Assembly: GCF_017356265.1 (NCBI RefSeq)
Contig: NZ_JAFNAW010000005.1
Coordinates: forward strand, 1-64,000
Reading direction: 5' to 3'
Length of the DNA stretch: 64,000 nt
DNA from: Paracoccus fontiphilus
GTDB lineage: Bacteria; Pseudomonadota; Alphaproteobacteria; Rhodobacterales; Rhodobacteraceae
A program made the position numbers and the translations under genes. Positions within the stretch are counted from its first letter, which is position 1. Every line of letters begins with the position of its first letter. A model generated the notes under the pieces. It was not told the origin of the DNA. It ran no database searches and was given only the letters and a program-made list of their open reading frames with translations. Shown piece after piece: positions 34,281 to 36,611 of the stretch.

Positions 34281-34337
34281 TCAGCCCAGACGATAGTTCG
34301 GGCTCTCTCTTGTGATCTGGACGTCGTGGACGTGACT
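34281..34337 (-). pseudogene. Displaced 3' end of guaB (last 18 codons and stop)
   Basis: The minus strand encodes [18 protein letters not shown] followed by TGA, identical in protein sequence to the C-terminus of the intact guaB 0.88 kb away. At DNA level 34312-34334 and 35194-35216 are the same 23 bases, while synonymous positions closer to the stop differ. The copy uses GC-rich host-like codons (GGC, CTG, CGT, TGA), whereas the intact gene ends with GGA, CTT, AGA and TAA. This is what integration of an element into the 3' end of guaB, with replacement of the gene's tail, would leave behind. Confidence 0.75.
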
Positions 34338-35162
34338 GCCACCACCAAATACCTACCGCCTTTCAGATACTTAGAAAACAACCGCATCAGTGCACATCAG
34401 CTGATTCGCGAAAAATCTCAGCTTTTGAACCAAAAAGCAGGCAAAAGTAACGCCGCACAAACGCGTAGTTCACCTCACCAGACAACGCCAAGATTGCCCA
34501 GCCGCCTCTGTTTTGTGCCCGAGCATCATGATTAAGATCTCTCGCTCTTCACTCGTGAGGCCTCGCTTGCCCCGCCGAGTGCTCATGGAGAGTAGGTCAA
34601 GGTATGGGGAAGGGAGAGCCGCTCGGTTGCTGGAGGTTCTCTTCGCAGTCTGCTTTTTCATGATGGGCCTTGTTGTTGGTTGCCCACGGAAAAAGGTATC
34701 GAGTGCCCGATTTGGGAAAACAAAGTTTGAATCGCTGTGTAGTTATGGAAGAGCGATTACCCGGTACAGCCGACAAACAATGTAAATATTTGAAACATAT
34801 AGTGAAATTTACTAACATCACGGCCGACAGGTCGCCGACATTGGAAGTCACCTTCAGAGCCGCTTTTTGTGACTGCGCTGGATGCGCAGCAATGACCGCC
34901 AGTCTGAGTGGTGACGTTAAGTCCAGCTTTCATGCCTGTAGGTACAACAGCCCGGCCATTTAGTAGCGCGCGTCGGAACAGTCATTGCCCGATGCACACC
35001 ATGCATCAGTAACGTTAGAAGACTATCTTTTTTTGCATCAGCAAAATCACTGATGCGTTGTCCAGTTCAGGGTATGTTCTGACCAGTTGTCACTTTGTTC
35101 TACCTAAAAGCGCCGAGGCGTTTTCTGCCTCGGCGCTTAAAATATCATTAAAATTTTATAGG
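34338..35162. other. AT-richer segment between the two guaB ends; possible relic of an integrated element
   Basis: About 0.8 kb with visibly lower GC than its surroundings and no recognisable protein on either strand. The longest frames (about 60-100 codons) lack family motifs. It is bounded by the duplicated guaB tails. It contains a small inverted repeat GCATCAG/CTGATGC (35035-35041 and 35050-35056) preceded by a T-run, and the terminator now used by guaB. No integrase gene remains. Confidence 0.5.
35104..35138 (-). terminator. Intrinsic terminator of guaB
   Basis: A perfect 12-bp stem AAGCGCCGAGGC (35108-35119) with 35127-35138 encloses a seven-base loop. On the minus strand the stem runs into CTTTTAG. 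It lies about 25 bp past the guaB stop, inside the segment bounded by the guaB-end duplication. Confidence 0.85.
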
Positions 35163-36611
35163 TTATCCAAGTCTGTAGTTCGGGCTTTCCCGCGTGATCT
35201 GGACGTCGTGGACGTGGCTTTCCTTCAGCCCCGCGCCCGTGATGCGCACGAACTGGCAGTTCTTGCGCATTTCTTCGACGGTGGCGCAGCCGGTATAGCC
35301 CATGGCGGCGCGCAGCCCCCCCACAAGCTGATGGATCACCGTGCCGGCGGGGCCCTTGTAGGGCACCTGGCCCTCGATCCCCTCGGGCACCAGCTTGTCG
35401 GTCGCGGCGTCCTTCTGGAAGTAGCGGTCGGCCGACCCGCGCGCCATGGCGCCAAGCGAACCCATGCCGCGATAGGACTTGAACGACCGGCCCTGGTACA
35501 GGATCACCTCGCCCGGGGATTCGTCCGTGCCGGCGATGGCGCTGCCGACCATCGCGCAGCTTGCGCCCGCCGCGATGGCCTTGGCGAAATCGCCCGAGGA
35601 CTTGATGCCCCCGTCCGCGATGATCGGCACGTCGCCCGCAGCCCCTGCCGCGTCCATGATCGCCGTCAGCTGCGGCACGCCCACGCCCGCCACGATCCGC
35701 GTGGTGCAGATCGAGCCCGGCCCGATGCCCACCTTCACCGCGTCAGCGCCCGCGTCGATCAGCGCGCGCGTGGCCTCGGCCGTGGCGACGTTGCCCGCCA
35801 CCACCTGCACCTGGTTCGAGAACAGCTTGACCCGCTCCACCGCCTTGGCGACGCCCGCGGAATGGCCGTGCGCGGTGTCGATCACCACCATGTCCACGCC
35901 CGCCTCGATCAGCGCCTGGCTGCGCTCGAACCCCTCGTCGCCCACGGTGGACGCGGCGGCGACCCGCAGCCGGCCCAGGTCGTCCTTGCAGGCCAGCGGG
36001 TTCAGGACCGACTTCTCGGTGTCCTTCAGGGTCAGAAGGCCGGTCAGCTTGCCCTGGCCGTCGGTGATCAGCAGCTTCTCGATCCGGCGGGCCTTCATCA
36101 GGCTGATCGCCTCGGCCCGGTCGGCGGGCTCGCGCAGGATCGCCAGGTTCTCGGACGACATCATGGCCCTGACCGGCGTGCCATCGTCGCTGGCAAAGCG
36201 CATGTCGCGGTTGGTCACGATGCCGACCACGCGGCCATCCTCGTCCACGACGGGAAAGCCGGTGACGTTGTAGCGATCCTGGAAGGCCTTGGCGTCGGCC
36301 AGGGTCTGGTCGGGGCGCAGGGTGATGGGATTGTAGACGATCCCCGATTCGAACCGCTTGACGCGGCGGACCTCGTCGGCCTGCTGTTCGGCCGTCAGGT
36401 TGCGGTGGATCACGCCCATGCCGCCCGCCTGCGCCAGGGCGATGGCCATGCGGCTTTCCGTCACCGTGTCCATGGCGGATGACAGAAGCGGGATGTTCAT
36501 CGCGATGTTTCGGGTCACGCGAGTCCTGACATCGGCGGTCGAGGGCATGACCGTGGATGCGGCGGGAACCAGAAGAACGTCGTCGAAGGTCAGAGCCTCA
36601 CGAATCTGCAT
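35163..36611 (-). CDS. guaB: IMP dehydrogenase
   Basis: Oxidises IMP to XMP, the committed step of GMP synthesis. The 482-residue enzyme has two CBS domains (about 95-205; RDMRFAS and [12 protein letters not shown]), the active-site loop [15 protein letters not shown] with the catalytic Cys (about 300), the [11 protein letters not shown] phosphate site and the flap [14 protein letters not shown]. The C-terminus is complete, but its last codons use GGA, CTT and AGA and a TAA stop, unlike the GC-rich usage upstream, and the same 18-residue tail is found again at 34281. See that entry for the integration model. Confidence 0.97.

Follow-up and report, generated by a model that had tools for sequence, protein, structure and literature searches.

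Islands integrated at guaA replace the 3' end of that gene. The same kind of replacement has been described for elements integrating at icd (PMC10111431) and for SGI1 at trmE. The Paracoccus prophages with mapped sites described in PMC6536676 occupy mostly tRNA genes and, in one case, dusA; they resemble what we report here in genus, in their tyrosine integrase and in being siphovirus-like, and we found no guaB site among those described there, nor do the words 'dehydrogenase' and 'beibuensis' occur in the main text of that paper. tRNA sites are also those named in the relevant parts of a Rhodobacteraceae survey (PMC8224337). The guaB gene itself has precedents as a phage target, which tempers the statement, made in a preliminary description of the locus studied here, that a guaB 3' end would be a noteworthy attachment site: a secondary lambda site has been described at the E. 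coli guaB promoter (Thomas and Drabble 1986, cited in PMC4129442), and a helper prophage from Enterobacteria is labelled Ana29.79.guaB (PMC10111431). Unlike the locus below, the lambda site is secondary, lowers guaB expression and involves no 3'-end replacement (PMC4129442), and the resemblance of the Ana29.79.guaB prophage, the same gene hit by a phage, is one of label (PMC10111431). In the open-licence PMC literature we found no report of the guaB 3' end as an integration site in Rhodobacteraceae.

We analysed a window of 64,000 nucleotides of Paracoccus fontiphilus DNA (the whole stretch, positions 1 to 64,000 of its contig), in which guaB is followed by a second copy of its own 3' end. Positions 34281-35216 are almost certainly the internally deleted remnant of an element placed at the guaB 3' end by a guaB-specific tyrosine integrase. 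Like the icd, trmE and guaA elements, it would reflect integrase insertion at a gene end, a synonymous replacement brought by attP and an original end left on the far side; it differs from them in its target, guaB, and in a divergent integrase family recognized by PF00589 in 11 of 32 members. The 3'-end replacement is thus of a known kind, and what appears to be new is the guaB-specific integrase family with its elements, together with a window holding a relic of one. The preliminary description had already read the locus as a gene end exchanged by an integrase and an element reduced to a scar, a reading borne out by empty sites, by fuller relatives and by arm arrays at both ends. In the sequence of events that we propose, the integrase would have recombined a 10-bp core, codons V-H-D-V of the guaB tail, with an identical attP core; attP would have brought a synonymous copy of the last guaB codons and a hairpin terminator, leaving guaB complete but with an ending encoded by the element, while the original ending would have moved to the far side of the element. 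CTGATGC repeats at both element ends would probably serve as the arms of the integrase, and the DNA from the distal arm pair, at the last integrase codons, to the arms on the guaB side would subsequently have been lost, presumably by deletion, or replaced, except for about 0.6 kb. The features concerned are collected in Table 1.

Table 1 Features of the guaB locus in the window
Feature	Position	Strand	Evidence or remark
Host gene found after guaB in relatives with an empty site, 146 aa	33605..34045	-	Genus homology search
Original intergenic DNA 3' of guaB	34046..34280	.	Matches the 175-196 bp gap between guaB and its neighbour in G019, G028 and G122
Displaced original guaB 3' end, 18 codons and TGA; distal junction	34281..34337	-	Core at 34321-34330
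Possible integrase C-terminus stub (LRFFANQLMCTDAVVF, stop), 13 codons	34371..34421	-	Weak: tblastn E 0.21 vs P0034
Distal arm-site pair CTGATGTGCACTGATGC (putative), 10-bp period	34384..34400	-	
Remnant interior, AT-rich, no recognisable gene or relative	34422..35002	.	
guaB-side arm-site array (putative), TGATGC N7 GATAG N14 TGATGC at 35003-35040, inverted copy at 35051-35056	35003..35056	-	
Hairpin and U4 downstream of the guaB stop, a probable element-supplied terminator	35105..35137	-	-26.9 kcal/mol, z -6.0
guaB (IMP dehydrogenase), intact, 482 aa, stop TAA	35163..36611	-	Homologous to the guaB genes of relatives
Final guaB codons and TAA stop past the crossover, probably element-derived	35163..35202	-	Synonymous-only difference from the displaced copy
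Putative crossover core TCCACGACGT, guaB-side junction, inside the 23-bp block 35194-35216	35203..35212	-	Seven pairs

As first noted in the preliminary description, the last 18 codons of guaB are present twice with the same protein sequence, the residues of the displaced fragment being those of guaB's final 18 with TGA instead of TAA. The two copies form a direct repeat of 53 bp (34285-34337 and 35167-35219) with 83% identity (44/53), while 50 codon-block shuffles of the window never gave more than 31 matching positions. Within it, the block of 23 bp (34312-34334 and 35194-35216) is exact, as claimed; it is found exactly at just these two places in the 4.1-Mb genome, and a whole-genome search allowing 3 mismatches added a single site, which lies on a different contig and uses all 3. 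Between V and R, the intact and displaced copies differ by 5 synonymous and 0 non-synonymous codons, in keeping with the earlier claim that only synonymous positions differ. The window copy therefore shows a short direct repeat of the target-gene end at both borders and an intact target gene with a synonymous replacement end. The displaced tail is 75-96% identical to the guaB ends of the 91 other genus genomes with a match. The interval between the copies (34338-35166) is AT-richer than its surroundings, as had been stated, with 48.6% GC versus 65.8% for the whole window, and the six AT-richest of 1264 windows of 829 bp all overlap it.

Relatives of the host gene downstream of the displaced tail were searched for in 125 genus genomes at a cut-off of E <= 1e-8, a sample in which this genome alone represents the window's species. 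Six genomes, its own included, had one. In three of them (G019, G028 and G122) the gene lies directly after guaB, 175-196 bp past the stop; in G041 and G069 it is on a different contig from guaB, and in the window 235 bp separate it from the stop codon of the displaced tail. Relatives with a single guaB end directly before this gene, which the preliminary description had suggested looking for, thus exist as uninterrupted sites with the same flank, and the alternative it had named, a spacing shared by all relatives, was not observed. Since the displaced tail and the DNA downstream of it align in the place of an ordinary guaB end, the fragment represents the original end and the 0.88 kb of the remnant represents the insertion. 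The proposal that the fragment is nearer to host usage held in part: its GGC, CTG, CGT and TGA agree with the unoccupied ends of relatives, whereas its ACA, AGA and GAG do not match the three empty-site relatives, to which the intact copy is closer here, a point against our explanation.

Fuller elements were then found among related genomes. When 34046-35162 was used as a query against the 125 genus genomes, with the three best candidates scored per genome, 92 genomes were matched, and the sole match outside the window's own genome that was not to a guaB tail was a stretch beside guaB in Paracoccus beibuensis CGMCC 1.7295 (77% over 62 bp); the guaB-side end of the remnant is 72.5% identical over 80 bp (E 3e-10) to this genome's C22. 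In P. beibuensis, guaB is intact and a displaced copy of its tail lies 49.6 kb away in the same orientation; the DNA between them holds terminase, portal, head-protease and tape-measure genes (7 of 9 tested proteins match PHROGs) and the gene of a 435-aa integrase, located 41 bp from the displaced tail. This is the larger element with an integrase between two guaB ends for which a search had been proposed. Ruegeria arenilitoris carries an 8.8-kb element of the same layout, both ends on one contig, whose cargo comprises a cytosine methylase and a type II restriction enzyme (L144:2706-4807). In a further Paracoccus genome, G044, integrase pieces, displaced tail and guaB are spread over two contigs, with a type IIG restriction enzyme (L103:4680-7511) and an LmuB-like protein between integrase and guaB. 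These loci document an integration dock at the end of a conserved, essential purine-synthesis gene in several Rhodobacteraceae genera and, since a prophage and restriction islands both use it, phage and defence cargo can be sought at guaB ends. G014 holds a second relic, where a broken integrase and a damaged tail follow guaB at no more than 1.4 kb from its stop. Two further second tails were not counted as elements. That of G100 belongs to a second complete guaB gene, and that of G124 is a lone tail that deviates at one of 14 residues and lies some 330 kb away from guaB (L096:8130-8200; C1, about 1191130); the 19 kb examined there contained no integrase of the family, and the locus is perhaps a rearranged or different element.

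On sequence grounds, the P. beibuensis integrase is a divergent tyrosine integrase. It has the catalytic-domain fold of tyrosine recombinases, its first structural match is lambda integrase, and it matches the PHROG 1 integrase (E 1e-17). PF00589 (Phage_integrase) matches 11 of the 32 family members at E <= 0.01, the P. beibuensis protein not among them, so that the standard profile will often miss the integrase of guaB-site cargo. R232, R346, H368 and Y390, which we take to be the catalytic Arg, Arg, His and Tyr of tyrosine recombinases, are kept in 32/32 members; Tyr343 occupies what is presumably the box II place, where many tyrosine recombinases elsewhere have His. The modelled protein resembles the lambda and Tn1549 integrase structures in the fold of its core-binding and catalytic domains and in its catalytic residues, although identity to them is 12-17%, and in place of lambda's arm-binding domain the model has an N-terminal segment rich in beta structure and then a helix, a part that we assume to be its equivalent. 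A characterised integrase/attP pair of this family could become a site-specific integration tool in Rhodobacteraceae.

In relatives, the displaced guaB end has the integrase gene as its neighbour, with transcription of that gene running towards the tail. Among 12 integrase loci in named genomes, a displaced guaB tail followed the integrase match by 0.05-0.85 kb in 10; of the other two, one contig ends inside the core and one locus has no tail, while shuffled loci (1.19 Mb) gave zero tail-like matches. Family members with identities down to about 35% share the guaB target, across several genera. The contig of a Maritimibacter MAG (L143:11150-11327) ends within the guaB core that directly follows the integrase, which is where an assembler halted by a repeated att site would be expected to break it. 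Limimaricola sp. G21655-S1 (L139:9361-10900) encodes a full-length family integrase; no guaB tail was found within 6.2 kb behind it, which counts against our explanation. More distantly, 19 further genus genomes gave weak integrase matches (E 1e-11 to 1e-3), and 1 of 385 genomes in a class sample matched at E 1e-20, at a 3.6-kb locus with no guaB tail. The family integrase was not found in phage records or, by protein or alignment, in viral contigs. Only one of 71 public proteins (P0056, 424 aa) has an integrase frame that reads on through the displaced guaB tail and ends in residues of guaB.

The guaB-side ends of these elements share CTGATGC repeats in the arrangement TGATGC, 6-7 bases, GATAG, 14 bases, TGATGC, and the integrase-side ends have a CTGATGC pair with a 10- or 9-base period. 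The exact guaB-side pattern was present in 7/125 genus and 5/394 family genomes (the window's own in both), with 0 matches for the reversed pattern in the same genomes, and in 517 genomes, window included, all 11 distinct places lay just 3' of guaB. The spacing of the window's distal pair recurs in P. beibuensis, Jannaschia, Aquimixticola and Maritimibacter (one variant repeat). Exact TGATGC is lacking from the distal end in Sulfitobacter, Cribrihabitans, Tropicibacter and at the lone G124 tail; the Ruegeria distal end has two widely spaced copies, and the guaB-side array of G044 is degenerate. Eight matches to the arm signature in viral contigs were read as chance, with neither guaB nor integrase in the stretches seen. 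The repeats are probably the integrase-binding arms.

To delimit the crossover, the intact and displaced copies of seven pairs (window, P. beibuensis, G110, G044, G088, G014 and Ruegeria) were compared. The only block of such length common to all seven was the 10-bp TNCAYGACGT (codons V-H-D-V), from which G088 departs at one position. The 23-bp block, proposed earlier as the crossover core, can thus probably be narrowed to about 10 bp. Consistently, an element-specific left arm, GCNCAYAT[GC], extends up to this core in G110, G044, G088 and G014, and the two copies diverge directly after it in P. beibuensis, G044 and G088. Differences between V and R were synonymous only in the window (5 codons), P. 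beibuensis (8) and Ruegeria (6); in G110, G044, G088 and G014, non-synonymous differences (1, 1, 2 and 4) accompany the synonymous ones (1, 3, 3 and 1), owing in part to arm sequence that the element brings to the V codon and to decay of the G014 tail. The same element might instead have crossed over in a second shared block, AGCCCGAACTA (codons S-P-N-Y), leaving more of the present guaB end host-derived. The empty-site relatives are best matched by the window's intact copy left of this block and by its displaced copy right of it, and CCGAACTA is common to the P. beibuensis copies too; we nevertheless regard this placement as unlikely, given that the block is broken in G110, G044, G088, G014 and Ruegeria, that TNCAYGACGT is common to all seven pairs, and that the left arm reaches the V-H-D-V core in four of them.

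Both ends of the insertion survive in the window, since the guaB-side array and the distal pair are present there, and its copy is the one double-ended copy lacking an integrase among the 125 genus genomes. The hairpin followed by U4, from the element end behind guaB, is a probable terminator, in agreement with the proposal that the insertion supplies the present guaB terminator; a simple terminator scan did not list it. The claim that no recognisable genes lie between the copies agreed with our searches, apart from a possible, weak integrase C-terminal stub (34371-34421) that has the strand and the distance from the tail to be expected and overlaps the distal arm pair. The integrase-family profile gave noise against the six-frame translation of the scar interior (best score -3.1 bits), its four ORFs matched no Pfam family except for one match at E 0.14, and no DNA similarity to it was found in plasmid or phage records. 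Two results count against our explanation: neither the window nor its genome has an integrase or a convincing integrase remnant, and the remnant interior matched nothing in these searches. As its own integrase is absent between the repeats, we speak of a relic and not of an element.

A different history, in which an integrase-less cassette was small on arrival or still moves in trans with the aid of related phages and no large element decayed in place, would account for two ends with core and arm sites around an interior without trace of phage genes. We consider it quite improbable: neither a further copy of the interior nor a short relative of it was found in the 125 genus genomes or in plasmid and phage records, and the G014 relic, of similar size, still holds a broken integrase, showing that decay in place happens. 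It is likewise improbable that the 0.88-kb unit is a live minimal cassette and guaB a dock where phages, restriction islands and cassettes replace one another. Having kept both cores and both arm arrays and lacking only the integrase, such a unit could be excised, moved or recombined by an incoming guaB-targeting phage or island, and each phage, island or cassette at guaB would then bring its own version of the guaB end. If the host itself had duplicated part of the guaB 3' end in tandem and the copies had then drifted, no mobile element would be involved; this would suit a repeat of 18 codons and no more and the missing integrase, but is hardly credible, as the 0.83 kb between the copies is AT-rich and foreign to guaB, the guaB-side arm array is that found beside guaB in integrase-bearing elements, empty sites exist, differences are synonymous only, and the element end shared with P. 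beibuensis already contradicts it. A left copy with more of guaB, which the preliminary description associated with such a duplication, was not found, the last 18 codons being the most it holds.

In G069 (L176-L178), G082 (L179-L181) and G190 (L183-L185) the guaB-side arm array lies behind guaB as a one-ended scar, with neither integrase nor second tail in 60 kb each. In the 1.6-4 kb beside guaB, tail-like alignments did not exceed those of shuffled sequence, and a longer G069 stretch gave back the gene's own end and nothing else. As these genomes retain the guaB-side end without integrase or tail, scars may be as common as full elements. On the short contigs of G165, G170 and G242 no tail-like alignment was found beside guaB; in G165, integrase and tail are on another contig than guaB. 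Before its displaced tail, G044:C3 (L102:34-858) has two overlapping integrase C-terminal pieces (residues 253-413 and 340-413), and this pairing suggests layered or repeated insertions.

Finally, guaB endings were compared across 69 distinct ends taken from the loci retrieved, which is not a random sample and in which the endings without the signature were counted by eye. In the window, guaB ends with CTT GGA TAA followed by the strong hairpin and U4. Among the 12 ends bearing the arm signature, 7/7 from Paracoccus were CTT GG[A/T] TAA, Ruegeria had CTT GCA TAA and four other family genomes differed too. An element-specific guaB ending together with the arm array makes past insertions readable from short scars. 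Without the signature, CTT GG[A/T] TAA was found in 2 of 57 ends, those of G044, an occupied site with degenerate arms, and G067.
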